Shown here piece by piece: positions 1-14,868 of a stretch of DNA of 14,868 nucleotides. The notes under the pieces were generated by a model that ran no database searches, was not told the DNA's origin, and saw only the letters and a program-made list of their open reading frames with translations. Positions within the stretch are counted from its first letter, which is position 1; every line of letters starts with the position of its first letter. Source of the DNA: Halomonas halophila (GTDB taxonomy: Bacteria; Pseudomonadota; Gammaproteobacteria; Pseudomonadales; Halomonadaceae); contig DJIP01000215.1 in NCBI GenBank assembly GCA_002433675.1, positions 17,601 to 32,468 on the forward strand, given 5' to 3'. Made by a program: the position numbers and the translations under genes.

Positions 1-1745
1 TCCTCGAGGTTCTCGGCCAGCGCCTCGAACTCGTTGATACCGGTCAGGTCGGTGCCCATGGCGATATTGGTGACCCGCTCGAGGATCACCTCGACCACCA
101 CCGGCACGCGGTGCTGACGGGCCATCTCGCGGGCCTGCTCCAGCGCCGGCGCAATGTCATCGGGTCGGCTGACCCTGAGCGCCTTGCAGCCCAGCCCCTC
201 CACCACCGACACATGGTCGACGCCGTAGCCGTCGATCTCATCGCAGTTGATGTTCTCGAAGGCGAGCTGCACGCAGTAATCCATGTCGAAGCCGCGCTGG
301 GCCTGGCGAATCAGGCCCAGATAGGCGTTGTTCACCAGCACGTGGACGTAGGGCAGCTTGAACTGCGCGCCCACCGCCAGCTCCTCGATCATGAACTGGA
401 AGTCATAGTCACCCGACAGCGCCACCACCTCGGCCTCGGGATCCGCCCGGCAGACACCCAGGGCAGCAGGGATGGTCCAGCCCAGGGGGCCGGCCTGACC
501 GCAGTTGATCCAGTGGCGTGGCCGATAGACGTGCAGGAACTGGGCGCCGGCGATCTGTGACAGTCCAATGGTGCTGATGTAGCGGGCGTTGCGGCCGAAG
601 ACCTTGTTCATCTCCTCGTAGACCCGCTGGGGCTTCACCGGCACATCGTCGAAGTGGGTCTTGCGCAGCATGCTGCGCTTGCGCTCCTGGCAGGACGCTA
701 CCCAGCCGCTGCGATCCCTGAGCCGTCCTTGTTCACGCCACTCGCGGGCCACCTCGACCATCGTCTCGAGCGCCGCCTTGGCGTCGGAAACGATGCCGTA
801 GTCGGGGCCAAAGATACGGCCGATCTGGGTCGGCTCGATATCGATATGCACGAAGGTGCGGCCTTCGGTGTAGGTCTCGAGATTGCCGGTGTGACGGTTG
901 GCCCAGCGATTGCCGATGCCCATCACGAAGTCCGACTCGAGCAGGGTCGCGTTGCCGTAACGATGGGAAGTCTGAAGCCCCACCATGCCCGCCATCAGCG
1001 GGTGATCGTCCGGTACCACGCCCCAGCCCATCAGGGTCGGGATCACCGGCACCCCGAGCAGCTCGGCCAGGGTCTGAAGTTCGCCGGCGGCGTCGGCGTT
1101 GATGATGCCCCCACCCGCCACCAGCAAGGGCCGATCGGCCTCGTTGAGCATGCCCAGGGCCTTTTCGCACTGGGCACGACTGGCCCGCGGCTTGTAGGCC
1201 ACCAAGGGTTCGTAGGCGTCCGGATCGAACTCGATTTCGGTCATCTGGACGTCGATGGGCAGATCGATCAGCACCGGCCCCGGACGCGAGGAACGCATGA
1301 TCTGGAAGGCCTGCTGGAAGGCGTGGGGCACCTGGGCCGCCTCCCGCACGGTGATCGCCCACTTGGTCACGGGCCCGGCGATGGCCTGAATATCCACCGC
1401 CTGGAAGTCTTCCTTGTGCAGCTTGCTGACCGGAGCCTGGCCGGTGATGCAGAGGATCGGTATGGAGTCGGCGCTGGCGGAGTAGAGCCCGGTGATCATG
1501 TCGGTCCCGGCGGGGCCCGAGGTGCCGATGCAGACCCCGATATTACCGGCCTTGGTGCGGGTAAAGCCCTCGGCCATGTGGGAGGCACCCTCGACATGGC
1601 GCGCCAGCACATGATCGATGCCGCCGAGGCGTCGCATCGACGAATAGAAAGGGTTGATCGCGGCCCCGGGCACGCCGAAGGCCACCTCGATGCCTTCCTT
1701 GATAAGCACGTGAACAGCGGCGTCGGCAGCAGTCATGCGAGTCAT
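1..1745 (-). CDS. gcl: Glyoxylate carboligase (tartronate-semialdehyde synthase), 3' end cut by window edge
   Basis: Thiamine-diphosphate enzyme that condenses two glyoxylates to tartronate semialdehyde plus CO2, the exit route for the glyoxylate made from allantoin. The leftward frame has 581 complete codons with no stop; from memory E. coli Gcl has about 593 residues, so only around a dozen are missing. The translation follows E. coli Gcl closely almost throughout: [14 protein letters not shown] near residue 22, [18 protein letters not shown] text near 48-58, [18 protein letters not shown] near 107, and [20 protein letters not shown] with the cofactor-binding GDYDFQF in the C-terminal half. 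Residue 51 is valine (RHVEGAS), where most ThDP enzymes have the catalytic glutamate; this is a known hallmark of Gcl. Start chosen at the ATG with GAGGAG (1753-1758) seven bases upstream; an ATG nearer the ribosome-binding site is out of frame. The promoter carries GntR- and IclR-type palindromes. Identification is very secure. Confidence 0.97.
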
Positions 1746-2366: not shown

Positions 2367-4421
2367 ATGACCAACTTCCGCGATATCGATGAGCGCTTGT
2401 CCAGCCTGTCGGCGCATCGCACCCTGCTGGCCATTCGCAACGCCTATCTGTCGATCCTGCCCTACGTCATCGTAGTGGCGGCGGTGACCGTCGCCACCAA
2501 CCTGTTTCACTTCACTGGCATCGACACCGGCATCGCCGTCTATGTCAGCCACCTGGCCCGCTATCTCGCAGAGCTGTTTCCCGAAGTGATCCTGCTGTCG
2601 TTGAGCTGGTCACTGAACAGCCACCACCGTATCCGTGCACCGGCCGTCATGCTGGTGTCACTGCCGGTGTTCTGGATCCTGTGCGGCTGGGACCAGCTCT
2701 ACGCTGAAGTCGGCCAGCAGACCCGCAGCCTGGGCTCGACCATCGCCATCTACCCCGCGATCCTGCTGACCCACACCGCCTTCAGGCTGTTCGCCCGGGA
2801 AAACACTCGGAGCGACCCCCAGCGCGTGGTCATGAGCCAGATGATCACCTTCAACCTGCGCTACGTGCTGCCTGGCGTCATCGCGGTGGGGCTGGCCATT
2901 GTGCTGCGCCTTGTCTTCGTTGCCCTCGCCGACCGCTACGCCCAGGACGTCTATGCGCTGCTGGTGGACCGTATTCCCTATCACCTGGAGATCATCCTGT
3001 TCGTGATGTTTCTGCAGGTGCTGTCGCTGTTCGCCATCCACGGCTACGCCACCATGCTGGGGGTGTTCGAATACCTGCAGAACAAGAGCGACGTGCTGGG
3101 GCTGCCCTCGCCGGAATTCTTCACCCTCTACGCGACCCCGGGCGGGGCGGGCTCGGTGTTGTGCCTGATGCTGGTGATGCTGGTGGTGAGTTCGCGCCGG
3201 GAGTACAAGTCACTGGCGCGCATCTCCGCCCCGCTGACCTTGTTCAATATCAGCGAGACCCTGGTTTTTGGCATACCGCTGGTGTTCAACCTGCGCATGG
3301 CCTGGGCCTTTATCTCGGTGCCGACGATCAATGCCAGCCTGGCCTACGCCGCCATGTCCATGGGCTGGGTGGCGCCACCACCCAACAGCGTACACTGGGC
3401 GGTGCCTTATCTGATCTCGAGCTACCTGGCCTTCGACGGCGTCTACCTGCCATCGATGCTGCTGCAATTGACCTGTATCGGCTGCGGGGTACTGATCTAC
3501 AGCGTGGCGTGGCGCCGCTATGTCCACCGCGAGCGCTCCAGCAAGGATGAATACCCGGTCTTTCCCTCGCGCCATGCCAGCGACTCGGCGTTTGGTGATG
3601 ACGCCCTGGATATCGTGCTGATGGAAGAGAACGTCAGCCGCTGGAGTCGTATCAAGCAGGCAGACCGAACCCTGAAATGGCTGGCCGAAGGCCAGCTCGA
3701 ACTGGTCTTCCAGCCCATCGTCGACGTCAGCACTCACCGCATCAAGCACGTCGAGGCCCTGCTGCGATATCGCGATGCCCGGGGTGAGTTGCATCCTCCG
3801 CAGTTTCTGGACGTGCTACGCCATCACCCCGGCGTCATGGAGGGCATCGAATGCTGGGTGATACGGACTGCCGCGCACCATGTGCGGCATTGGAATGAGG
3901 CGGGGTTTTCCAAGCGTCTGTTCATCAATGTGACGCCGCTGTTCTTTTCCAGCGAAAACGTCCGGCGGTGCTTCTTCAATGCGCTCAACGATTGCCCGAT
4001 CAACTCGCTGGGCATCGAGATCACCGAACAGGCCCTGCTCGAGGACCTTCCCCGAACGCTTTCCGATATCAAGCTGTTTCAGTCCATGGACGTCCAGTTC
4101 GCACTGGATGACTTCGGCAGCGGTTACTCTTCCTTCAACTACCTGAGCCAGCTTGGCGTGGACTATATCAAGCTGGACAAGACGCTGATCGACAATATCC
4201 ACCTGCCCCGCCAGGCCAGTGTCGTCGAATCGGTGTATCAATTGTGCCGGGACCTGAGCCTGCAGGTCATCTGTGAAGGCGTGGACAAGGACGCCAAGGA
4301 GGCTCGCCTCGAGCGAATCGGTGTCACCCTGATGCAGGGCTTCCTGCTCTATCGCCCGATGGAGGCCCCCGCACTGGAAACCCTGCTGCGCCAGGAGCAG
4401 CACGCAGCAGGATCCCTATAA
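2367..4421 (+). CDS. Membrane c-di-GMP phosphodiesterase with PTS EIIC-like sensor region and EAL domain
   Basis: A 684-residue two-part protein. Residues about 20-395 are strongly hydrophobic with many membrane spans and resemble the EIIC permease of lactose/cellobiose-type PTS systems; NISETLVFGIPLVFN matches the conserved NIGEP-type sugar-site motif. Residues about 435-680 form an EAL domain that hydrolyses cyclic di-GMP in the cytoplasm. The expected catalytic residues are all visible: E463 in EALLR, N521 in FINVTP, E551 in EITE, D581 and D582 in DDFGSGYSS, K602 in IKLDK, E637 in CEGV and Q657 in QGFLLYRP, so activity is likely. No GGDEF, EIIA or EIIB domain is present, so the membrane part probably senses rather than transports. 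The ATG at 2367 has no clear Shine-Dalgarno sequence, so the start is less certain than the family. The gene stands alone, converging on puuE-allA-allE. Confidence 0.9.
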   Translation: MTNFRDIDERLSSLSAHRTLLAIRNAYLSILPYVIVVAAVTVATNLFHFTGIDTGIAVYVSHLARYLAELFPEVILLSLSWSLNSHHRIRAPAVMLVSLPVFWILCGWDQLYAEVGQQTRSLGSTIAIYPAILLTHTAFRLFARENTRSDPQRVVMSQMITFNLRYVLPGVIAVGLAIVLRLVFVALADRYAQDVYALLVDRIPYHLEIILFVMFLQVLSLFAIHGYATMLGVFEYLQNKSDVLGLPSPEFFTLYATPGGAGSVLCLMLVMLVVSSRREYKSLARISAPLTLFNISETLVFGIPLVFNLRMAWAFISVPTINASLAYAAMSMGWVAPPPNSVHWAVPYLISSYLAFDGVYLPSMLLQLTCIGCGVLIYSVAWRRYVHRERSSKDEYPVFPSRHASDSAFGDDALDIVLMEENVSRWSRIKQADRTLKWLAEGQLELVFQPIVDVSTHRIKHVEALLRYRDARGELHPPQFLDVLRHHPGVMEGIECWVIRTAAHHVRHWNEAGFSKRLFINVTPLFFSSENVRRCFFNALNDCPINSLGIEITEQALLEDLPRTLSDIKLFQSMDVQFALDDFGSGYSSFNYLSQLGVDYIKLDKTLIDNIHLPRQASVVESVYQLCRDLSLQVICEGVDKDAKEARLERIGVTLMQGFLLYRPMEAPALETLLRQEQHAAGSL

Positions 4422-4661: not shown

Positions 4662-5504
4662 TCAGTCCAGCGTCGGCAGCTTCATATGCCGATTGACGTC
4701 CTTGTACAGCAGGTAGCGGAACGGACCGGGACCACCGGCGTAGCATGCCTGCGGGCAGAAGGCGCGCAGCCACATGTAGTCTCCCGCCTCGACCTCGACC
4801 CATTGCTGGTTGAGGTGATACACCGCCTTGCCCTCGAGCACGTAGAGGCCGTGCTCCATGACATGGGTCTCGTCGAAGGGAATCACTCCGCCGGGCTGGA
4901 AGGTCACCACCGTCACATGCATGTCGTGACGCATGTCGTCAGGATCGACAAAGCGGGTGGTCGCCCACACCTCGTTGCAATCCGGCATCACCGTCGGCGC
5001 GATATCGTTCTCGTTGGTGACGATGGGCTCGGGCAGATCGATACCGTCGACGCGTTCGTAGGCCTTGCGTATCCAGTGGAAACGCACGGCTTCCTTGCTG
5101 CGATTGCGCACCTGCCAGTCGCTGCCAGGGGGGATAAAGGCGTAGCCGCCGGGCACCATCACATGCACCTGGCCCGCCAGGGTCAGCTCAAGCTCCCCCT
5201 CGACGACAAACAGCACGCCTTCCGCCTGAGGGTTGGGCTCCGGACGTTCACTGCCGCCCTCCGGGCCGACTTCCATGATGTACTGGGAAAAGGTCTCGGC
5301 GAACCCCGACAACGGCCGTGACAGCACCCATAGCCGGGTGTTGTGCCAATGGGGCAGCTTGCTGGTGACGATGTCCCGATAGACGCCCTTGGGGATCACC
5401 GCGAAGGCCTCGGTAAACATCGCCCTGTCGGTGGTCATCACCTTCTGGCTCGGGTGCCCGCCGTGGGGCGCATAGTAGTGTCGTGTCGGTTGGGAAGCGC
5501 TCAT
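4662..5504 (-). CDS. allE: (S)-ureidoglycine aminohydrolase (bicupin)
   Basis: Hydrolyses (S)-ureidoglycine to (S)-ureidoglycolate and ammonia in the cytoplasm, the step after allantoate amidohydrolase. The 280-residue protein has two cupin domains (roughly residues 60-150 and 185-275) and matches E. coli AllE (YlbA), most clearly in ETHVMEHGLYVLEGKAVYHL. The manganese ligands of the family are visible in the second cupin: E212, H214, H218 and Q252. Their spacing of 2, 4 and 34 residues equals that of the characterised plant enzyme as I remember it (E235, H237, H241, Q275). The start is supported by AAGGAT (5511-5516) six bases upstream. It is the last gene of the puuE-allA-allE operon, 79 bases after allA. 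Its 3' end has been tandemly copied downstream. Presence of this enzyme implies an AllC-type allantoate amidohydrolase elsewhere. Confidence 0.95.
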   Translation of the reverse strand: MSASQPTRHYYAPHGGHPSQKVMTTDRAMFTEAFAVIPKGVYRDIVTSKLPHWHNTRLWVLSRPLSGFAETFSQYIMEVGPEGGSERPEPNPQAEGVLFVVEGELELTLAGQVHVMVPGGYAFIPPGSDWQVRNRSKEAVRFHWIRKAYERVDGIDLPEPIVTNENDIAPTVMPDCNEVWATTRFVDPDDMRHDMHVTVVTFQPGGVIPFDETHVMEHGLYVLEGKAVYHLNQQWVEVEAGDYMWLRAFCPQACYAGGPGPFRYLLYKDVNRHMKLPTLD

Positions 5505-5583: not shown

Positions 5584-6075
5584 TCACTCACCCAGGGTGA
5601 CGCGAACCTCGAGGGGATATTCATCGCAATTGTTGCCGTCACCGCCGCGATCGACGACGAGAAATTCGCCTTCGCGCTCCAGCACAGACTGGATGGCGTG
5701 CCAGGTACCCGCGCGGTAGTTGACGCCCTGTCGGCCGTCGGTGACGAAGGCCCGCACCTCGGCAGGATCGATGCTATCGCCTGCCGGAGCCACCACGATG
5801 ATAAAGCGCTCCTCGTGCAGCGGCATGAACGCCTGACTGCCGAGGGGGTGGCGCTCCAGGAAGGACAGCGTCAACGGCAACTCGATGGGCTGGCTGACGA
5901 ACAGACTGATCATCGGCCGCGCGTTGTCGCCCAGGGTCTCGATCGGCACCAGATCATGGTGGCGCTGGGTGCGTCCAGCGTTGATCGAAAAGGAAGCGGA
6001 GTTGCGGGCGTCGATAACCTCGCCAAAGGGGACGAAGGCCTCAGCCGTCAGGGGATGTGCAGTCAATTCGAGCAT
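5584..6075 (-). CDS. allA: Ureidoglycolate lyase
   Basis: Splits (S)-ureidoglycolate into glyoxylate and urea, feeding Gcl. The 163-residue product is the length of E. coli AllA (about 160) and follows it nearly throughout: PLTAEAFVPFGEVID at the N-terminus, LERHPLGSQAFMPL in the middle, RAFVTDGRQGVNYRAGTWH around residues 110-130, and the signature VDRGGDGNNCDEY near the C-terminus. The start has AGGAA (6081-6085) five bases upstream. Middle gene of the leftward operon, with gaps of 77 bases to puuE and 79 to allE. The family was once misnamed ureidoglycolate hydrolase; the lyase activity releasing urea is the established one. Nothing looks broken. Confidence 0.95.
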   Translation of the reverse strand: MLELTAHPLTAEAFVPFGEVIDARNSASFSINAGRTQRHHDLVPIETLGDNARPMISLFVSQPIELPLTLSFLERHPLGSQAFMPLHEERFIIVVAPAGDSIDPAEVRAFVTDGRQGVNYRAGTWHAIQSVLEREGEFLVVDRGGDGNNCDEYPLEVRVTLGE

Positions 6076-6152: not shown

Positions 6153-7094
6153 TCAGCCGATCGGCGCCGGCGTCGGCGCGGGGAACTGCTCCGCCCAGTG
6201 GCGAGCAATATCGATCCGACGGGTGACCCAGACCCGATCGTGGGCCTCGATATGGTCGAGAAAACGCTGCAGGGCGCGAAAACGCCCCGGACGGCCGATC
6301 AAGCGACAGTGCAGGCCCACCGACAGCATCTTCGGAGAGTCCTCGCCCTCGGCGTAGAGCACATCGAAAGCATCACGCAGGTAGGTGAAGAAGTGATCGG
6401 CGGTGTTGAAGCCCTGGGGCGCGGCGAAGCGCATGTCATTGCTGTCCAGGGTATAGGGCACCACCAGATGCGGATGATGCTGGCCCTGGCTGTCGGCCTC
6501 ACAGGTCCAGAACGGCAGGTCGTCGCCGTAGTAGTCGCTGTCGTAGAGAAAGCCACCTTCGTCCAGTATCAAGCGCCGGGTATTGGGGCTGTCTCGGCCG
6601 GTGTACCAGCCCTGAGGACGCTCGCCGTAGAGCCGCTCGAAGATCTCGATGGCCTTGCGCATGTGCTCCCGCTCGACCTTCTCCGAGACCTGCTGGTAGT
6701 GGATCCAGCGATAGCCATGACAGGCGATCTCGTGCCCCAGCTCCTTGAAGGCGTGGGCCAGTTCAGGGTGGCGTTCCAGCGCCATGGCGACCCCGAACAC
6801 CGTCAACGGCAGCCCCCGTCGCTCGAATTCCCGCAGCACTCGCCAGACCCCGGCACGGGAGCCGTACTCGTAGATCGACTCCATGCTCAGATGGCGATCG
6901 GGATAGCTGTCGGCACCGATGATCTCGGACAGGAACTGCTCGGAGCCCGCGTCACCATGGAGCACACAGTTCTCTCCGCCCTCTTCGTAGTTGAGCACGA
7001 ACTGTACGGCGATCCTCGCCTTGCCTGGCCAGTTGGCATGGGGAGGCGTGCGTCCGTAGCCGATCAGATCACGCGGATAGGATGTTGTTGTCAT
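6153..7094 (-). CDS. puuE: Metal-independent allantoinase of the polysaccharide deacetylase fold
   Basis: Opens the hydantoin ring of allantoin to give allantoate. The 313-residue protein belongs to the NodB-like fold group and resembles PuuE of Pseudomonas (about 308 residues): YPRDLIGYGRTPPHANWPG at the N-terminus, FVLNYEEGGENC (residues 32-43) in place of the metal-binding TFDDG motif, YEYGSRAGVWR, ELGHEIACHGYRWIHYQ, GWYTGRDSPNTRRL and LHCRLIGRPGR. Loss of the aspartate pair is the hallmark of the metal-independent allantoinases, unlike the amidohydrolase-type AllB. Start supported by AGGAGA (7103-7108) eight bases upstream. First gene of the leftward operon; a candidate promoter at 7395-7423 overlaps a TGTATACA operator, implying control by a GntR regulator and a leader of nearly 300 bases. 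In Pseudomonas, puuE also neighbours allA and a GntR gene. Confidence 0.94.
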   Translation of the reverse strand: MTTTSYPRDLIGYGRTPPHANWPGKARIAVQFVLNYEEGGENCVLHGDAGSEQFLSEIIGADSYPDRHLSMESIYEYGSRAGVWRVLREFERRGLPLTVFGVAMALERHPELAHAFKELGHEIACHGYRWIHYQQVSEKVEREHMRKAIEIFERLYGERPQGWYTGRDSPNTRRLILDEGGFLYDSDYYGDDLPFWTCEADSQGQHHPHLVVPYTLDSNDMRFAAPQGFNTADHFFTYLRDAFDVLYAEGEDSPKMLSVGLHCRLIGRPGRFRALQRFLDHIEAHDRVWVTRRIDIARHWAEQFPAPTPAPIG

Positions 7095-7394: not shown

Positions 7395-7423
7395 AAAATA
7401 GACTGTACTCACTTTCTTGGCAA
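7395..7423 (-). promoter_or_regulatory. puuE: Candidate sigma70 promoter of puuE-allA-allE
   Basis: On the minus strand, TTGCCA (7418-7423, one mismatch to TTGACA) is followed after exactly 17 bp by TATTTT (7395-7400, two mismatches to TATAAT). Transcription would begin near 7388, inside the TGTATACA operator, leaving a leader of about 295 bases before puuE. Assigned by eye. Confidence 0.45.
7401..7413 (+). promoter_or_regulatory. Satellite motif GACTGTACTCACT beside operator 7382
   Basis: Lies 19 bp (start to start) from the TGTATACA palindrome and inside the spacer of the candidate puuE promoter. A one-mismatch copy lies 21 bp from the palindrome at 7551, in the same orientation. TTGTAC/CTGTAC resembles half of the palindrome, so it may be a weaker second binding site about two helical turns away. 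Confidence 0.4.
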
Positions 7424-7549
7424 TACCGTCATCGACCAACGTTCACAAGGGAAAGCTCGTCGAATGTCACTGCACAGCTGCCTCCAGGGCCCTGCTGGCG
7501 ATCCATCCATTCTGTGATGACATTCGCAACGGGGCTGGAAGCGAACGTA

Positions 7550-7559
7550 TTGTATACAT
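7550..7559. promoter_or_regulatory. TGTATACA palindrome, probable operator of the racemase-NCS1 operon
   Basis: Core TGTATACA at 7551-7558, context ATTGTATACATAAAT, 225 bp upstream of the first rightward gene. It is the third exact copy of the 8-mer, and all three lie in intergenic regions next to allantoin-pathway operons. No convincing -35/-10 pair for the rightward operon could be placed exactly over it. Confidence 0.6.
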
Positions 7560-7571
7560 AAATTCCCGAAT

Positions 7572-7584
7572 GATTGTACTCACT
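7572..7584 (+). promoter_or_regulatory. Satellite motif GATTGTACTCACT beside operator 7551
   Basis: One base different from the motif at 7401-7413 and in the same orientation relative to its palindrome, starting 21 bp after it instead of 19. The shared arrangement suggests that palindrome plus satellite is the functional unit or that the segment was duplicated. Confidence 0.4.
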
Positions 7585-7738
7585 AGATAACAAGAACGGT
7601 ACTCATGATCGGAGCACTATCCTTCCAGATACCACCATCTCGCCAAAAACACCCTATAAACAGATGTTTTATAGACTATTTTTTCATCATTTCCGATCAG
7701 CGGACGCAACCCTTGATGCGTATCCGATATCGATCTAT

Positions 7739-7750
7739 TTTGTGTACAAA
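7739..7750. promoter_or_regulatory. TGTGTACA variant palindrome upstream of the racemase gene
   Basis: TTGTGTACAA with core TGTGTACA at 7741-7748 differs from the exact sites by one base. It sits 35 bp before the racemase start codon, between AT-rich DNA and the ribosome-binding site. It could be an auxiliary operator; chance is also possible. Confidence 0.35.
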
Positions 7751-7783
7751 GACATTTATTCCTCGTCCACGAAGGCAACAGGC

Positions 7784-8542
7784 ATGCATCTCCACCTGAT
7801 CAACCCCAACACCACCGCCGGCATGACCGAGACGATTCGCCTCGCCGGCAGTGCCATCGCCTCGCCAGGCACGCGCATCACCGCCTCCCAGCCGGCCAGT
7901 GGCCCGGTATCCATCGAGGGCCATTTCGACGAAGCGATCAGCGCCGTCGGTGTGGTCGAAGAGGTCCTGCGCATGGACAGGGAAGCCCAGGTCGATGCCT
8001 ACGTGGTGGCCTGCTTCGGTGACCCGGGCCTGTTGGCAGCGCGGGAAGCCACCCGAGCCCCGGTGATCGGCATCGCCGAGGCGGCCTTCCATATGGCCAG
8101 CCTGATCAGCACGCGCTTCTCGGTGGTGACCACCCTGGGACGCACTGTGATCATCGCTGAGCACCTGCTCGACCAGTACGGTTTTCGTCACCAGTGTCGT
8201 CGGGTGCGCGCCGCCGAGATCCCGGTGCTGGACCTGGAAGACGATAGCGACTGCGCGCTCGACAAGATCATTGAGGAGAGCCGTCGTGCCAGGGACGAAG
8301 ATGGCATCGGCGCCATCGTGCTGGGCTGCGGCGGCATGGCTGACCTGACCGAGACCATCAGTCGCGAGGTGGGCCTGCCGGTGGTGGAAGGGGTGACGGC
8401 GGCGGTGAAGCTGAGCGAGGCGCTGGTAGGACTGGGCCTTGGCACCTGCAAGACCGGCGACCTCGCCTTCCCCCGCCCCAAGGCCTTCAGCGGCGCCTTC
8501 CAGCACCTGTCGAACTTGGATCTGGAGACCACAGAACGCTGA
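7784..8542 (+). CDS. Hydantoin/allantoin racemase of the Asp/Glu racemase superfamily
   Basis: Cytoplasmic cofactor-independent racemase, expected to interconvert (R)- and (S)-allantoin or related 5-substituted hydantoins so that the stereospecific allantoinase can use both. The 252-residue protein starts with the family hallmark LHLINPNTTAGMTETI. The two cysteines that act as the acid/base pair are present: C77 in VVACFGDPG and C182 in VLGCGGMADL, 105 residues apart as in characterised hydantoin racemases. The start at 7784 is preferred over an in-frame TTG at 7574: GAAGG (7771-7775) lies eight bases upstream, and family similarity begins at residue 2. First gene of a rightward operon with an NCS1 permease 57 bases downstream. 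The context with puuE favours allantoin racemase (HpxA type), but hydantoin specificity cannot be excluded from sequence. Confidence 0.9.
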   Translation: MHLHLINPNTTAGMTETIRLAGSAIASPGTRITASQPASGPVSIEGHFDEAISAVGVVEEVLRMDREAQVDAYVVACFGDPGLLAAREATRAPVIGIAEAAFHMASLISTRFSVVTTLGRTVIIAEHLLDQYGFRHQCRRVRAAEIPVLDLEDDSDCALDKIIEESRRARDEDGIGAIVLGCGGMADLTETISREVGLPVVEGVTAAVKLSEALVGLGLGTCKTGDLAFPRPKAFSGAFQHLSNLDLETTER

Positions 8543-8599
8543 TCCCCGACGACCCGACAAGACCTGACCCATAATAATCCACAACGAGCGAGGTCCAAG

Positions 8600-9961
8600 A
8601 TGACCACTTCCACTTCCCGGCCAGACGCGCCCCAGGGTGTCGCCGAGGCCACCACCAAGAGTGTCGGCGACGAATCGCTGGCCCCCCAGAAGACCCGTAT
8701 CATGGGGCGCACCTCCTACCTGCTGGCCTGGTTCGGCGGCTGCGTCTCGATCGGCACCTTCACCATGGGCTCCAGCGTGGTCGGCACCCTCAACCTGATC
8801 CAGGCCACGGTGGCTATTGCTATCGGCTGTTTCGTCATTGGCATCGCCCTGGCCATCAACGGCGCCGCGGGCTACAAGTACGGCATCCCCTTCATGGTCC
8901 AGGCGCGCAGCGCCTTCGGCTTCCAGGGCACTCGTCTGCCTGGGCTGGTCAGGGCGGTGCCGGCCATCGTCTGGTATGGCTTTCAGAGCTGGATCGGTGC
9001 GGGCGCCCTGAACCTGGTGTCGGCCACCCTGTTCGGCTACGACAACCTGATCGTGTTCTTCATCGGCTTTCAGTTCCTGCAGATCGGCCTGTCGGTGCTC
9101 GGCTTCCAGGGCATCAAGTGGCTGGAGAACGTGGGCAGCGCCTTCATCCTGGCCTCGCTGGTCTATATGTTCTACAGCACCGTGGTCCGCTACGGCGATG
9201 CCCTCTCGGCCAACCTGTTGACCATGGAAGGCTCCTGGGGGCTGCCTTTCTGGGGCGCTACCATGCTGTTTCTGGGCATCTACTCGACCATGATGCTCAA
9301 TGTCAGCGACTACTCCCGCGAGCACGTCAAGGGCACCGGGCCGGGTCTGTTGACCACCATCTACGCCATGTCGATCCTGCCGTGCACGCTGTTCATGGGA
9401 TTGATCGGCTACATGGTGTCCGAGGCCACCGGTGTGGCCGATCCGATCAAGGTCTTCGCCAACGCCGTGGACAATACGCCGCTGCTGATGACGACGCTGC
9501 TGTTCATCGCCTTCGCCCAGGTCACCACCAACGTGCTCAACAACGTGGTGCCGCCTACCTACGTGCTGATGGACACCTTCAAGATGAGCTTCCGCAAGGC
9601 GACGGTGATCGTCGGCCTGCTGGCCTTCGCGACCTTCCCCTGGGAGCTGGTAAAGGACGAGTCCGCCGCCGGCCTGCAGGTGTTCGTGCAGACCTACTCC
9701 TCCTTCCTCGGCCCGATCTTCGCGGTGCTGGTGGTGGACTACTACCTGATTCGCCGCCGCACCCTGGATCTGGACAAGCTGTACGACGAGAACGGCCCTT
9801 ACCGTGGCGTCAATCTGGCCGCCTTCATCGCTACAGGAGTGGGCGTCATCGCGGCCTTCAGCATGCCCACGGTGTCCTGGTACGCAAGCCTGATCCCGGC
9901 GGGCCTCACCTACCTGCTGCTGATGCGCTACTGGAAGGGCTGCCAGCGCTTTACCCAGTGA
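8600..9961 (+). CDS. NCS1-family permease, probably for allantoin, hydantoins or nucleobases (first copy)
   Basis: Inner-membrane cation symporter of the nucleobase:cation symporter-1 family (CodB, PucI and Mhp1 relatives). The 453 residues begin with a hydrophilic tail of about 35 and then form about 12 membrane segments. Family features seen include NGAAGYKYGIPFMVQARSAF near residues 88-107, WYGFQSWIGAGALN near 124-137, a central SDYSRE motif, NVLNNVVPPTYVL, and VDYYLIRRRTLDL before the last two helices. Start supported by GAGG (8590-8593) six bases upstream. It sits 57 bases after the racemase gene and 66 before the next gene, so it is probably cotranscribed. The NCS1-B product of this operon belongs to the same family but is clearly different in sequence. 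Substrate is inferred from context; cytosine or uracil permeases share the fold. Confidence 0.88.
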   Translation: MTTSTSRPDAPQGVAEATTKSVGDESLAPQKTRIMGRTSYLLAWFGGCVSIGTFTMGSSVVGTLNLIQATVAIAIGCFVIGIALAINGAAGYKYGIPFMVQARSAFGFQGTRLPGLVRAVPAIVWYGFQSWIGAGALNLVSATLFGYDNLIVFFIGFQFLQIGLSVLGFQGIKWLENVGSAFILASLVYMFYSTVVRYGDALSANLLTMEGSWGLPFWGATMLFLGIYSTMMLNVSDYSREHVKGTGPGLLTTIYAMSILPCTLFMGLIGYMVSEATGVADPIKVFANAVDNTPLLMTTLLFIAFAQVTTNVLNNVVPPTYVLMDTFKMSFRKATVIVGLLAFATFPWELVKDESAAGLQVFVQTYSSFLGPIFAVLVVDYYLIRRRTLDLDKLYDENGPYRGVNLAAFIATGVGVIAAFSMPTVSWYASLIPAGLTYLLLMRYWKGCQRFTQ

Positions 9962-10027
9962 GCACGGCGAGGCCCCGCTTCCTGACGAACGGGCGCCTCG
10001 CACCCGCCAAACCCCGAGGACAACACG

Positions 10028-10801
10028 ATGACACTCTCTCTTCCTTCCCTGCTCCAGGCAGTCGCCATTCCCGGGCTCGCCCTGATGATGGCCGTTGCGC
10101 CGATGGCCAGCGCCGAAAAACCAGCATCGGCCCCCCTGGGCACCATTGTGCTCATCAACCCCAACTCCAGTGATACCGCCACCCAGGCCATGGCGGCGCT
10201 GGCCGAGCGAGAAACCCGGGGGCAGGCGCGGGTCGTCGGGGTCAGCAACGCCTCGGCACCTCGCCTCTTGACCACCCCCGAGGACATGGTCGCGGCCAGC
10301 CAAGGCGTGGTTGAACTGGGACGCCAGGCCGCCGAGGACCCGTCCACCGGCGCCATCATCGTTTCGGCCTTCAGCGACCCCGGGCTTGATCAACTGCGCG
10401 AGGCCGTCGACATTCCGGTATTCGGCATCGGCGAAGAGGTCTTCCACGAGGCAGCGCGCGATGGCCGCCCCTTCGGTATCGCCACCATCACTCCCGACCC
10501 GGCCCTGATCGAGTCCTTCGCCGCCAAGGCCGAGGCTCTGGGCTACCTGGATCAGTACCGAGGCACCCGCGTCACCCCCGGCGATCCGGTGGAATTGCTC
10601 GACTCGCCACAGGTACTCGATGCCGCCCTGGCTGACGCCATCGAGGCCTCGGTCAGCGAAGACGGCGCCGAAGCCGTGATCATGGGCGGAGGGCCCTTGT
10701 CAGATGCCGCCCTTCGCCTTCAGGACAGCACCGAAGTGCCCTTGGTGATAGCCGTCAGTGCAGCGGCCAAGGCGGCGATCGCGGCCCTGGGCCGCAACTG
10801 A
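10028..10801 (+). CDS. Exported-looking, cysteine-free racemase-fold protein
   Basis: A 257-residue homologue of the Asp/Glu/hydantoin racemases: GTIVLINPNSSDTATQAM (residues 39-56), FSDPGLDQLREAVDIPVFGIGEE and a C-terminal VPLVIAVSAAAKAAIAAL align with the racemase at 7784. Both catalytic cysteines are replaced: VSAFSDPG has A115 where VACFGDPG has C77, and IMGGGPLSD has G222 where VLGCGGMAD has C182. There is no cysteine anywhere in the protein. Residues 1-29 look like a Sec signal peptide ending in ASA before E30, though without a positively charged N-terminus. Start supported by GAGGA (10016-10020) seven bases upstream; later ATGs lack such a site. It lies between two NCS1 permease genes with 66-base gaps on each side. 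A racemase activity looks impossible by the known mechanism. A ureide-binding or regulatory role at the periplasmic face is my inference. Confidence 0.82.
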   Translation: MTLSLPSLLQAVAIPGLALMMAVAPMASAEKPASAPLGTIVLINPNSSDTATQAMAALAERETRGQARVVGVSNASAPRLLTTPEDMVAASQGVVELGRQAAEDPSTGAIIVSAFSDPGLDQLREAVDIPVFGIGEEVFHEAARDGRPFGIATITPDPALIESFAAKAEALGYLDQYRGTRVTPGDPVELLDSPQVLDAALADAIEASVSEDGAEAVIMGGGPLSDAALRLQDSTEVPLVIAVSAAAKAAIAALGRN

Positions 10802-10867
10802 GCCACGCGCTTCGCACCGACAGGCACGACGACTGACACAACAACAGAAACAACAAGAGACACCTTC

Positions 10868-12322
10868 ATGTCCCATGACGATCTAAGCCTCGATACTTCC
10901 CGGGTCGACCCGAGCCTGTACAACGAGGACCTGGCCCCGCTGCCCCACGCCCAGCGCAACTGGGGCGCCTTCGAGATCTTCAACGTCTGGTCCAACGACA
11001 TCCAGAGCCTGTTCGGCTACACCCTGGCCGCATCGCTGTTCCTGTCCTACAACCTGAGCGGCTGGGCAGTGATGGCGGCGATCATCCTGGCCGGGGTGAT
11101 CGTGATGTTTCTGGTCAACCTGACCGGCGCCCCCAGCGTGCGCTACGGCATCCCCTTCCCGGTCATGGTGCGAGCGAGCCTGGGCGTGCGCGGCTCCAAC
11201 CTGCCGGCGCTGTTACGCGCCCTGGTCGGGATCTTCTGGTACGGCGTGCAGACCTACTTCGCTTCCACCGCCGTCACCCTGATGATCACCGCCCTGATCG
11301 GCACCGACGGCGGGGCCGGCATGCTCGGCCTGTCACCTGTCGCCTGGCTGTCCTTCGTGCTGGTGTGGCTGTTTCAGATCGCGATCTTCTGGTCGGGGAT
11401 CGAGCGCATCAAGCACTTCCTCAACTGGGCGGGGCCGCTGGTCTACGTGGTCATGGTGGCGCTGATGGTGGTGGTCTGGTGGCAGGCCGGCAGTGAACTG
11501 CTGCCAGCGATCGGCTCCATCTTCTCGGCCAGCGGGGAAGGCGGCGGTGGCATCGGCGCCTTCGCTGCCGTGGTCGGCACCATGGTGGCCTACTTCGCCG
11601 CCGTGGTGATCAACTTCGGCGACTTCACCCGTTTCGTCCGAACCGAGCGCCAGATGAGGCTCGGCAACCTGCTGGGGCTTCCCCTCAACGTCGCCTTCTT
11701 CTCCTTTATTGCGCTGATCATCACCGCCGGCACCCTGGTGCTGTTTGGCGAGGCCCTGACCAACCCCACCGATATCGTCGACCGGGTCGACGCCTTGCCG
11801 TTGACACTGCTGGCGGCGGTCACCTTCTTCGCCGCCACCGTGGGCATCAACCTGGTGGCCAACTTCATCCCCCCGGCCTACGACCTGGCCAACCTCTTCC
11901 CCCGGGCGATCAGCTTCAAGATCGGCGGCCTGATCACTGCCTGCGTGGCCTTCTTCGTCGGCGCGCTGTGGGTCTCGGTGATCAGCCAGATCGGCGTACC
12001 CGGCTTCGTCAACGCCGTGGGGGCCATCGTCGCTCCGTTCTACGGCATCATCGTGGTCGACTACTATCTGATCAAGGGCCGCCGGCTCGACGTCCAGGCG
12101 CTGTTCTCCTCCCGTGAAGGCGACGCCTACACCTACACCAACGGCTGGAACCTGCGCGCCGTGGCGGCCTTTGCGCTGGCCGCGATCTTTTCGCTGGCGA
12201 CGGTGGTGGTGCCTGCCCTGCAGGGGCTGGCCGGCTTCGGCTGGATGATGGGGGCAGCACTCGGTGGCGCCATCTACTACGCGCTGATGCGCCAGCACAA
12301 GCAGGCAGTGGCAGCCAGCTAA
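10868..12322 (+). CDS. NCS1-family permease, probably for allantoin, hydantoins or nucleobases (second copy)
   Basis: Inner-membrane cation symporter, 484 residues with about 12 hydrophobic segments. The N-terminal YNEDLAPLPHAQRNWGAFE (from about residue 18) is the conserved entry of the allantoin/hydantoin branch (AllP, PucI and Mhp1 have a similar stretch), followed by NVWSNDIQSLFGYTLAASL, SVRYGIPFPVMVRASLGVRG, FWYGVQTYF, INFGDFTRFVR, NLVANFIPPAYDLANLFP and VDYYLIKGRRLDV. Start supported by AAGAGA (10855-10860) seven bases upstream. Last gene of the rightward operon, 66 bases after the cysteine-free racemase homologue, and followed by hairpins. Only modest resemblance to the permease at 8600 is visible, so the two genes are more likely paralogues with different substrates than a recent duplication. 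Substrate remains inferred. Confidence 0.9.
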   Translation: MSHDDLSLDTSRVDPSLYNEDLAPLPHAQRNWGAFEIFNVWSNDIQSLFGYTLAASLFLSYNLSGWAVMAAIILAGVIVMFLVNLTGAPSVRYGIPFPVMVRASLGVRGSNLPALLRALVGIFWYGVQTYFASTAVTLMITALIGTDGGAGMLGLSPVAWLSFVLVWLFQIAIFWSGIERIKHFLNWAGPLVYVVMVALMVVVWWQAGSELLPAIGSIFSASGEGGGGIGAFAAVVGTMVAYFAAVVINFGDFTRFVRTERQMRLGNLLGLPLNVAFFSFIALIITAGTLVLFGEALTNPTDIVDRVDALPLTLLAAVTFFAATVGINLVANFIPPAYDLANLFPRAISFKIGGLITACVAFFVGALWVSVISQIGVPGFVNAVGAIVAPFYGIIVVDYYLIKGRRLDVQALFSSREGDAYTYTNGWNLRAVAAFALAAIFSLATVVVPALQGLAGFGWMMGAALGGAIYYALMRQHKQAVAAS

Positions 12323-12341
12323 GCGCCAGGACAACAAAACG

Positions 12342-12370
12342 GCAAGGGGCCTGGGGGCCCTCTGTCTTGC
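12342..12370. terminator. Imperfect hairpin just after the second permease gene
   Basis: Outer arms GCAAG (12342-12346) and CTTGC (12366-12370), inner arms GGGCC (12347-12351) and GGCCC (12356-12360), with five unpaired bases on the 3' side. It begins 20 bases after the stop codon. There is no U tract, so it may protect or process the 3' end instead of terminating. Confidence 0.4.
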
Positions 12371-12393
12371 GACAACGCCACACTAAAGGGCCA

Positions 12394-12429
12394 CACCTGG
12401 CCTACCGCCTGACGGCGGTCGGCCAGGTG
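12394..12429. terminator. Strong hairpin after the racemase-permease operon
   Basis: A 36-base near-perfect inverted repeat: CACCTGGCC pairs with GGCCAGGTG, then one T/C mismatch, then ACCGCC with GGCGGT around the loop TGAC. No T run follows on either strand. The position 71 bases past the permease stop suggests a transcript end, possibly factor-dependent. Confidence 0.5.
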
Positions 12430-12628
12430 CGAAAGACGGGTACGAAAAGTCTTTCAAGTCTCGCGCTCACGCTTACACCTTCACCCCATTTGCGCGCAAA
12501 GCGGCGCAAAATGCGCGATATGGTGTAACACTCCCCCGCATTGCAACAAATCCGTAAAGCGCCCCCTCCATCGTCGTCCTCTTCCTGCCGTCCCCCTTTT
12601 CGGGCCGGCGCCAACATGAGGACATCCA
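12430..12628. promoter_or_regulatory. Upstream region of the broken PiT gene with palindromes
   Basis: Contains the 12-bp perfect palindrome TTTGCGCGCAAA (12489-12500), bracketed by an outer inverted repeat TTACACC (12473-12479) and GGTGTAA (12522-12528). GCGCAAAA and ATGCGCG follow as partial repeats of the palindrome. The symmetrical nesting suggests an operator. I could not place a sigma70 promoter or a convincing Pho box here. Confidence 0.4.
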
Positions 12629-14136
12629 ATGACAACACCCAGTCATACCGTCCCGACATCATCGGGAATCCGCCCTTCTGGCCTCAGTCTGGCCTTCGCC
12701 GTACTGCTGTTTGCCACCGTCGGCTACTTTCTGTTCTGGGGGTTTGGCTACACCCAGGGCCATTTTCCCCTGGTCTTCGGCCTGGCCACCCTGTTCGGGG
12801 TGTTCATGGCCTTCAATATTGGTGGCAATGATGTCGCCAACTCCTTTGGCACCAGCGTCGGCGCCGGCACCCTGACCATCAAGCAGGCACTGCTGGTGGC
12901 AGCGGTGTTCGAGGTCAGCGGTGCGGTGATCGCCGGCGGCCAGGTCACCGACACCATTCGCAAGGGTATCGTCGACCTGTCCGGCTTTACCATCGCGCCG
13001 ATGGACTTCGTCTACATCATGATGTCGGCTCCTCTCTGGTGCTCGGCGCCTTGACTCCGGGCGTCCACAGCATGGAACTGGTGCAATGGGGCCAGATCTG
13101 GCAGATCGCGGTGTCCTGGGTGCTGTCGCCGGTACTGGGCGGTCTGGTCTCCTACGCCCTGTTCGGCCTGATCAAGAAGCACATCCTCAGCTACAACGAT
13201 GAAGCCGAGAATCGCCTCAAGGAGATCAAGCGCCAGAAGTACGAGAACGACCGCCGCCACAAGGAGGCCTTCGAGCGACTCTCGGAAATCCAGAAGATCT
13301 CCTATACCCACGCCATGACACGTGATGTCCAGGCTTACCACGACCAGGACTACGAGAGCGCCGAGTTCGAGTCGGACTACTTCAAGGAGCTTGCGCGCAT
13401 CGAGAAGCAGCGCGAAGATGTCGACGCCCACCGAGCCCTGCAGAACTGGGTTCCGATGGTCGCCGCCGGTGGTGCCATGATCATTTCCGCCATGCTCCTG
13501 TTCAAGGGCTTCAAGCACCTGGAGCTGGGTCTGACCACCCTCAACAACTACATGATCATGGGCATGATCGGGGCCGTCGTGTGGATGGCGACCTTCATCT
13601 TTGCCAAGACCCTCAAGGGCAACTCGCTGTCACGCTCCACCTTCCTGATGTTCAGCTGGATGCAGGTCTTCACCGCTGCCGGCTTCGCCTTCAGTCATGG
13701 TTCCAACGACATCGCCAACGCCATCGGTCCCTTCGCGGCCATCCTCGACGTACTGCGCAATGGTGCCATCGGCAGCGAGGCGGCGATTCCTCCGGTAGCC
13801 ATGATCACCTTCGGGGTAGCGCTGATCGTCGGGCTCTGGTTTATCGGCAAGGAGGTGATCCAGACGGTGGGCCACAATCTGACGGCCATGCATCCGGCCT
13901 CGGGATTCGCCGCCGAGCTGGCGGCTGCCGGAGTGGTCATGCTGGCTACGATCATGGGTCTTCCGGTCTCCAGCACGCATATTCTGATCGGTGCAGTGCT
14001 GGGGATTGGTCTGGTCAACCACCAGACCAACTGGACCCTGATGAAGCCGATCGGCCTTGCCTGGATCATCACACTGCCGGCAGCAGGAGCCATCAGTGCG
14101 GTGTCCTTTGTGACGTTGCGCACGATCTTTGGCTAG
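12629..14136 (+). pseudogene. pit: PiT-family low-affinity phosphate transporter, broken by an internal deletion and frameshift
   Basis: Two frames together encode one inorganic phosphate:cation symporter. The first (12629-13054) starts at an ATG with GAGGA (12618-12622) six bases upstream and has the N-terminal signature [14 protein letters not shown] (residues 63-76), then FVYIMMSA. The frame is lost near 13024-13032 and ends within ten codons. The second frame resumes as [13 protein letters not shown] and runs to 14136 with the charged cytoplasmic linker (about 13190-13450), [14 protein letters not shown] and [13 protein letters not shown]. In intact relatives about 30 residues separate MMSA from VGSS and contain the first PVSTTH signature; here they are missing. 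About 90-100 bases have thus been lost, and the number is not a multiple of three. Reinitiation at the GTG at 13039 lacks a ribosome-binding site. Transport is very probably abolished unless the deletion is an assembly artefact. Confidence 0.85.
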
Positions 14137-14310: not shown

Positions 14311-14868
14311 TCAGGGTGCAAAGATATCGAACAGGTTGGGCGCCTCGTCCTCTTCCTCGACGATCGACAACGAGGCCTCGATGGCCTTGAGGTGGCGGCC
14401 CATAAAGGCGGCGGCGCGCTCGCCCTTGCCGTCTTCCAGGTACTGGATCAGATCCTGATGATCGTGTGACTCGCAGCCCAGGTGCCCGGCGTTGCCGTAG
14501 ACGGCCAGAATCAGCGAACTGCGCGAACACAGGCGTTCGACGAAATCCGCCAGGGTGCGGTTGCCGGAGACCCGGGCCAGATAGGTGTGGAAATCGGCGG
14601 ACAGGCGAATCGCGACGCTCTGCTCACCACTTCGCAACGCTTCCCGCTCGCGCCGGGCCATGTCCTTGAGAGTGACGATGTCATCCTGGGTAATGCGCCT
14701 GGCGATGTCTGACATCAGCCCGCACTCGACCATCTGGCGGGCGTCGAATACGTCCTTGGCTTCGTCAGCGGTAGGACGCGTCACGCTGGCGCCACGGCGT
14801 GGCGTTAGGGTGACGAGCTGCTCCAGTGCCAGGCGCTGCAGGATCTTGCGAATGCCGGTACGACTGAC
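14311..14868 (-). CDS. GntR-family transcriptional regulator with FCD domain, 5' end outside the window
   Basis: The visible 185 residues begin in frame at the window edge inside the winged-helix DNA-binding domain: VSRTGIRKILQRLALEQLV is the recognition helix region and TPRRGASVTRP the wing. The rest is an all-helical FCD ligand-binding domain: DVFDARQMVECGL, the metal-site helix SADFHTYLARVSGNRTL, and later HDHQDLIQYLEDG and MGRHLKAIEASL with the other histidines. The acidic C-terminus ends in NLFDIFAP. Roughly 40-60 N-terminal residues are missing. In Pseudomonas a GntR regulator neighbours the same purine-catabolic genes. FCD-type GntR proteins bind TTGTATACAA-like palindromes, so this is the prime candidate for the sites at 1772, 7382 and 7551. 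Its effector may be an allantoin-pathway metabolite; that is inference. Confidence 0.92.
   Translation of the reverse strand, partial: VSRTGIRKILQRLALEQLVTLTPRRGASVTRPTADEAKDVFDARQMVECGLMSDIARRITQDDIVTLKDMARREREALRSGEQSVAIRLSADFHTYLARVSGNRTLADFVERLCSRSSLILAVYGNAGHLGCESHDHQDLIQYLEDGKGERAAAFMGRHLKAIEASLSIVEEEDEAPNLFDIFAP

Follow-up and report, generated by a model that had tools for sequence, protein, structure and literature searches.

The window considered here, a stretch of 14,868 nucleotides from Halomonas halophila, is a urate/allantoin catabolic locus, and among its genes is an open reading frame (ORF) at 10028-10801 that encodes an exported-looking protein of the racemase fold containing no cysteine among its 257 residues. 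The gene is separated by 66 bases from the NCS1 permease gene upstream (NCS1a) and by a further 66 bases from a second NCS1 permease gene downstream (NCS1b), and all three lie on the forward strand. The protein matches the Pfam family PF01177 (Asp_Glu_race) with 138.3 bits against a cut-off of 31 over residues 40-250, a match that covers the profile in full (positions 1-211 of 211) and places the protein within the racemase fold. This was the sole match in Pfam-A, and a search of NCBIfam at an E value of 0.001 gave none. The racemase encoded two genes upstream is 30% identical to it over 220 columns (BLASTP E 9e-18). An earlier note on this DNA had described a racemase-like protein without any cysteine and with a signal-like N-terminus, lying between two NCS1 permeases, and this description is confirmed by PF01177, PF02133 and the sequence itself. 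Positions were mapped by alignment to the 3qvj chain (numbering in the search output is two lower), which places A114 and G221 at the two catalytic cysteines, C79 and C184, of the Klebsiella pneumoniae allantoin racemase KpAllR. The earlier note had named the correct residues but numbered them one too high (A115 and G222). With A114 and G221 at these sites the protein lacks the cysteine pair of the allantoin and hydantoin racemases. Residues 1-29, MTLSLPSLLQAVAIPGLALMMAVAPMASA, form a hydrophobic stretch with A-S-A at its end. No ATG, GTG or TTG lies in frame 5' of the start at 10028. In the predicted structure the first three ten-residue blocks have a pLDDT (predicted local distance difference test) of 52-65.

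Conservation was assessed on the 120 listed of 337 homologues, with two control sets: the 120 listed best of 7,419 two-cysteine racemases, which are close to the window's own racemase, and 120 listed of 1,111 signal-less cysteine-less relatives (P0121-P0240). Signal- or lipobox-like N-termini were scored by a crude rule of our own making applied to the residues before the first strand. All 120 homologues have A at the first cysteine position (site 1) and G at the second (site 2), and 111 have a signal- or lipobox-like N-terminus, the window protein itself being scored as signal-like; this pattern is more than would be expected by chance. The remaining nine have short N-termini, of which at least one looks like a late start (P0046, whose residues recur in the ORF of locus L005 behind a full hydrophobic stretch). 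The racemases have both cysteines in 120/120 and a signal-like extension in none, so that signal-bearing homologues retaining both cysteines, which the earlier note had named as evidence against its proposal, were not seen among those listed. The signal-less relatives have A (111) or G (9) at site 1 and G at site 2 (119, with one gap), again with no signal-like extension in any of the 120. Cysteine loss and a signal are not strictly coupled, as the nearest relatives are cysteine-less and have no signal. The INPN and SDPG segments, noted earlier as retained, are present at residues 43-46 and 116-119 and are nearly invariant, with N44, P45, N46 and S116-G119 found in all 120 homologues and I43 in 118. 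Where databases name these proteins, it is as allantoin racemase, hydantoin racemase or Asp/Glu racemase family protein.

A similar picture emerged from genomic loci. Fifty-two were collected, of which 45 have a family ORF scoring above 250 bits (two of them, L045 and L050, come from one genome); seven were dropped, comprising five signal-less relatives, one broken gene and one fragment. A hydrophobic N-terminal stretch is present in 38 of the 45. The seven without a signal-like ORF start are L016, which has signal-like residues upstream but no start codon in that frame, L045 and L050, in which the signal-bearing N-terminal piece is a separate ORF, L049, whose ORF begins MINPN and in which no signal was seen, and L024, L031 and L048. 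The last three ORFs lie at 9968-10660, 10082-10696 and 9890-10657 respectively, that of L024 overlapping the stop of NCS1a; either export has been lost in these members or a cytoplasmic form exists. All nine loci outside the Pseudomonadota (six Tsukamurella, Natribacillus, Nesterenkonia and one bin labelled Acidobacteriaceae) carry a lipobox-like motif that immediately precedes the mature domain and is not followed by a strongly hydrophobic stretch, as judged by a loose pattern that admits TVAC in L043 and Ser before Cys in three. A first lipobox rule, which selected 38 of the 120 homologues, was set aside as too loose because a Cys within the hydrophobic stretch of a Gram-negative signal also fits it. 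An ORF of 947 amino acids in L018 was not accepted as a fusion, as it looks like a GC-rich upstream extension. These genes form a real and conserved family, as opposed to a single broken gene, and recur across several phyla.

The old active-site cleft can be compared with that of KpAllR. The KpAllR pocket comprises N12, M17, C79, T118, T119 and C184, with an oxyanion hole formed by backbone nitrogens, which in OpaE belong to the residue after each cysteine (PMC12661438). The corresponding residues of the window protein are N46, A51, A114, T153, I154 and G221, with F115 and G222 at the oxyanion-hole positions. N46, F115 and T153 are invariant in the 120 homologues and G222 is found in 119. Ten polar residues (N74, T82, S116, R147, T155, S163, T183, D186, S225 and R230) are fixed in 116-120 of the 120 and differ in the listed racemases. 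A ureide-binding cleft appears, from residue conservation, to be partly kept and partly remodelled, the remodelled positions being largely fixed. This would fit a specific ligand, without saying which, or whether the ligand is altered.

The relationship of the family to the racemases was addressed in a tree of 71 rows with a midpoint root, in which long branches meet near the family base. Twenty family members form one group (support 100/100). This is nested in a larger group of 37 rows (100/100), in which the remaining rows lack both cysteines and any signal; 19 two-cysteine racemases form a separate group (100/100). The signal-less relatives (P0121-P0240; L053, L054, L056 and L062-L068) share with the family A or G at site 1, G at site 2, a GGGPL motif and, for the most part, R147, T155, G179, D186 and P187. 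They differ in being about 217 amino acids long with no N-terminal extension, and are presumably cytoplasmic; to our knowledge none has been characterised. Those in L053, L054 and L056 each lie directly downstream of two PuuE-like hydrolases, which in L056 score 254 and 305 bits against TIGR03212, under its cut-off of 424.6, and look like an uncharacterised catabolic pair. A single clade of the family, the GGGPL relatives and L058 was not rejected by the approximately unbiased test (p 0.37), the other cysteine-poor groups being outside this test. Since signal-less cysteine-less members occur within the larger clade, the simplest order of events would be that the cysteines were lost in a cytoplasmic ancestor and export was gained later, with the caveat that two early-branching family members, L048 and L049, also show no signal. 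Two more groups fall on the racemase side of the tree; the first lacks both cysteines and the second retains the first cysteine only. The former has A at site 1 and G at site 2 in an AGAPLAG-type motif (L003, from contig C299 of genome G000, with L027, L035, L065, L073, L074, L076, L083 and L088), so that cysteine loss in this fold may have occurred more than once. The latter (L071, L072, L077, L078 and L079) combines C-F-G-D-P-G-L with GGAALAG or GGAGLAG, the reverse of arylmalonate decarboxylase (AMDase), which keeps the second cysteine. In six pairs of loci the ratio of nonsynonymous to synonymous substitution (dN/dS) was 0.13-0.31, which indicates that the family gene is under purifying selection.

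Gene neighbourhoods were scored by matches to the window's own genes, in place of a clustering of all ORFs, because of shadow ORFs in GC-rich DNA. Within 4 kb of the family gene NCS1a is found in 27 of the 45 loci, a two-cysteine racemase in 29 and either NCS1 in 28. Two loci have a racemase but no NCS1, and 15 have neither nearby, of which two, L041 and L049, are truncated where their contigs end. A genome-wide search was made for 16 loci without an adjacent NCS1a (13 of these 15, plus L043, L046 and L051). Six of the genomes hold NCS1a elsewhere, each time beside a racemase, and 15 contain a racemase-like match, although that of Natribacillus (29%) may be the family protein itself. In Tsukamurella L043 an NCS1b-like gene lies beside the family gene. 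In L046 (Paracoccus versutus) and L051 (Paracoccus sp. DMF-8) there is a complete LIV-type ABC importer, followed by a racemase (apparently broken over two frames in L051) and then the family gene. The lipobox-bearing members of Tsukamurella L018, L040 and L055 lie near an apparent sodium:solute symporter and a DeoR-type regulator instead of ureide genes, as judged by eye from first residues, and by eye a GalT-like gene is also near in L040 and L055. Sixteen Halomonadaceae genomes with NCS1a and without the family gene were sampled; NCS1b directly follows NCS1a in 12, and in the other four NCS1a is followed by FCD or other ORFs (the ORF order in L108 is unclear). In four sampled genomes with the family gene (L115-L118) it lies between NCS1a and NCS1b. 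This order suggests that the gene was either inserted into a functioning uptake operon or has often been lost from one.

Further evidence for an association with uptake genes came from co-occurrence. Among 151 Halomonadaceae genomes the protein is found in six (E 1e-20), NCS1a in 81 (E 1e-100) and the racemase in 109 (E 1e-40), and by coordinates NCS1a lies directly upstream in all six. Among 121 Paracoccus genomes the protein is found in 12 (E 1e-40), NCS1a in 36 (E 1e-150) and both in 10, with the genes, by their coordinates, adjacent in seven of the ten and unlinked in three; the two genomes with the protein and without NCS1a are the ABC-linked ones. Fisher tests gave p 0.022 for the protein with NCS1a in Halomonadaceae, p 0.14 (not significant) for the protein with the racemase, and p 8e-5 for the protein with NCS1a in Paracoccus, values that overstate independence, since the species counted are related. 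The data support an association of the protein with genes of ureide uptake beyond what chance would give. Across 398 genomes sampled from the whole phylum, family-like scores are confined to the window's own genome (396 bits; the next 196), which makes the family rare and patchy. Divergence was compared over 24 loci, with the row L031 left untrimmed at the motif; the protein tracks the racemase with r 0.33 and NCS1a tracks the racemase with r 0.79, neither value being reached in 2000 shuffles. A tree of 42 NCS1a rows mixes, within Halomonadaceae, loci that have the protein with loci that lack it, and the label changes five times in all.

The remaining genes of the window (Table 1) are in keeping with its catabolic nature. 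Glyoxylate carboligase, (S)-ureidoglycine aminohydrolase, ureidoglycolate lyase and the allantoinase PuuE each pass a curated NCBIfam or Pfam cut-off, and in the loci of relatives genes for urate oxidase (PF06181), HIU hydrolase and OHCU decarboxylase are found downstream (profile check in L102 and L113). The likely start of the racemase is the ATG at 7784 and not the TTG at 7574, as the orthologous ORF in L009 begins MHLHLINPN. NCS1a scores 184 bits with the NCBIfam ncs1 model and 139 bits with the allantoin permease model, both under cut-off. A promoter scan of the locus gave no sites. Terminator-like sites in 7400-12700 number eight against 2.6 expected, none of them on the forward strand between 9961 and 10801. 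Also within the locus, at 2367-4421 on the forward strand, is an ORF in which a PTS EIIC-like membrane domain (residues 14-379) is joined to an EAL cyclic di-GMP phosphodiesterase domain (about 426-680). A PHO4/PiT phosphate transporter appears to be split into overlapping forward-strand ORFs at 12629-13054, which was assigned by eye, and 13039-14136, which spans profile positions 105-350 only.

Table 1. Features of the window, with the evidence for each assignment.
Feature	Position	Strand	Evidence
Exported-looking cysteine-less racemase-fold protein (the subject of this work)	10028..10801	+	257 amino acids, ATG to stop
Signal-peptide-like N-terminus, residues 1-29, no Lys/Arg	10028..10114	+	Sequence; crude rule on listed homologues
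A114 codon, first catalytic-cysteine position (C79 of KpAllR)	10367..10369	+	Alignment; A in 120/120 listed homologues
G221 codon, second catalytic-cysteine position (C184 of KpAllR)	10688..10690	+	Alignment; G in 120/120 listed homologues
Two-cysteine allantoin/hydantoin racemase	7784..8542	+	PF01177 182.7 bits; both Cys in 120/120 listed homologues
NCS1 permease a, directly upstream of the 10028 gene	8600..9961	+	PF02133 189 bits
NCS1 permease b, nearer to allantoin permease models	10868..12322	+	PF02133 283 bits; PRK11375 allantoin permease 257 bits, cut-off 620
Allantoinase PuuE	6153..7094	-	TIGR03212 534 bits, cut-off 424.6
Ureidoglycolate lyase	5584..6075	-	PF04115 186 bits; PRK13395 195.6 bits, cut-off 160
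(S)-Ureidoglycine aminohydrolase	4662..5504	-	NF008376 526.8 bits, cut-off 338
Glyoxylate carboligase, runs off window	3..1745	-	TIGR01504 1147.7 bits, cut-off 711.2
FCD-domain regulator, runs off window	14311..14868	-	PF07729 76.5 bits

The computed properties of the family, namely its membership and fold, the loss of cysteines, the conserved signal- or lipobox-like N-terminus, purifying selection and the association with uptake and racemase genes, suggest a role that we put forward with evenly balanced confidence: an accessory extracytoplasmic ureide-acquisition protein, most likely ligand-binding, built on a racemase fold that no longer racemises. If truly exported, the protein would sit in the periplasm, or be lipid-anchored in Gram-positive members, and racemase activity would have been lost with both catalytic cysteines. 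Allantoin or a closely related cyclic ureide would be bound in the old active-site cleft and captured ahead of uptake by NCS1 symporters, or by the LIV-type ABC importer in two Paracoccus, in a role accessory to uptake and not essential for it. We infer both binding, as opposed to catalysis, and any contact with a transporter. Binding is favoured by the lipid anchor in Gram-positives, the absence of a catalytic cysteine and the partly conserved ureide cleft. A number of observations weigh against this proposal. The n-region of the window protein is atypical, having no Lys or Arg and thus no positive charge, and no signal was seen ahead of L024, L031 and L048, which lie downstream of NCS1a. In the cleft, the listed homologues have V or I in place of T119 of the ureido pocket (position 154) and A or S in place of M17 (position 51). 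The ABC importers of L046 and L051 already have their own Peripla_BP_6 binding protein, ten of the 16 searched genomes, including six Tsukamurella, have no NCS1a at E 1e-40, and divergence of the protein tracks that of NCS1a weakly (r 0.26, reached in 8 of 2000 shuffles). Of the genomes with NCS1a, 75 of 81 in Halomonadaceae and 26 of 36 in Paracoccus lack the protein, for which reason an obligate partnership with NCS1 was rejected; the adjacency claimed earlier is frequent but not obligate, and while an exported-looking reuse of the fold alongside ureide uptake genes stands, the idea of a dedicated NCS1 carrier does not. Finally, the signal-less cysteine-less sisters cannot be periplasmic binding proteins, so that the original role of the clade was different. 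That the family is a new class of extracytoplasmic binding protein, its cysteines lost in the cytoplasm and a signal or lipid anchor gained later in the service of NCS1 symporters, is a tentative proposal and, in our judgement, a rather doubtful one.

The main rival is an exported enzyme that acts in the periplasm on a ureide or a compound resembling hydantoin, and does so without cysteine-pair chemistry, for example by a lyase, hydrolase or decarboxylase step that makes the compound transportable; we take this possibility seriously while thinking it less than probable. The ten fixed polar positions would suit such an enzyme, one of them, S116, falling two residues after the position of AMDase Gly74 in a hand alignment of the LMGTSLSF motif. 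The signal-less sisters that follow PuuE-like hydrolases (L053, L054 and L056) occupy a catabolic setting needing no binding protein. The association also spans two unrelated transporter types and unlinked genes, and this independence of the transporter, together with the ABC loci that have their own binding protein, favours an enzyme or some other role. Against catalysis stands the complete absence of cysteine, with no alternative catalytic pair that we can name, while every characterised enzyme of the fold known to us uses at least one. A structural, sensing or regulatory pseudoenzyme outside uptake, for instance one that presents a ligand to a membrane sensor, seems unlikely. It would accord with the accessory distribution, with the 15 of 45 loci that have neither NCS1 nor racemase nearby and with the lack of dependence on one transporter, but no recurring membrane sensor gene was noticed beside the family gene (though no search was aimed at one), the FCD regulators found around many of the loci belong to a cytoplasmic type, and the NCS1a association in Paracoccus is above expectation. 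Patchy presence (six of 151 Halomonadaceae genomes) and the members without a signal might also suggest a decaying duplicate of the neighbouring racemase with an incidental signal-like N-terminus. This is very improbable, and a recent degenerate copy was rejected, since protein and racemase fall in separate 100/100 groups, dN/dS is low and many positions are identical in all 120 listed homologues. Taken together, the data support an accessory extracytoplasmic ureide role but do not decide between binding protein and exported enzyme.

The closest known systems differ from the family in several respects. The allantoin racemase HpxA/AllR (K. pneumoniae 3qvj, 3qvk and 3qvl; P. fluorescens 5lfd and 5lg5) has both catalytic cysteines where the family has A and G, and lacks the signal- or lipobox-like N-terminus; N12 and T118 are kept in the window protein whereas T119 and M17 are not, and the family is a clade separate from the sampled two-cysteine racemases. 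Allantoin and hydantoin racemases are without an export signal, in contrast to the family (none of 120 against 111 of 120 listed, by the crude rule). The family resembles the extracytoplasmic substrate-binding proteins of ABC, TRAP and TTT systems in its signal peptide or lipobox-like N-terminus (again by the crude rule, with L024, L031, L048 and L049 as exceptions) and in the transporter genes often nearby, but it matches no Pfam-A binding-protein family and its main partner is an NCS1 symporter. We know of no use of binding proteins by NCS1 symporters. In AMDase, Gly replaces the second cysteine at Gly74 (PMC4996985). AMDase has Gly at site 1 and keeps a Cys at site 2 (Cys188), whereas the window protein has A at site 1 and is cysteine-free. 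In the open-access literature, judged from titles and the starts of abstracts, no description of exported or cysteine-free racemase-fold proteins was found, which is not proof of absence.

Cross-feeding of allantoin via symporters has been proposed for ocean microbes (PMC11698098). The racemase names that these proteins carry in databases are probably wrong as a description of function for the exported members. Should family members prove to be enzymes, we know of no earlier cysteine-free enzyme with the racemase fold. If it is true that the family binds ureides outside the cell, it would represent a novel type of solute receptor, and we are aware of no earlier partner of this sort for an NCS1 symporter.
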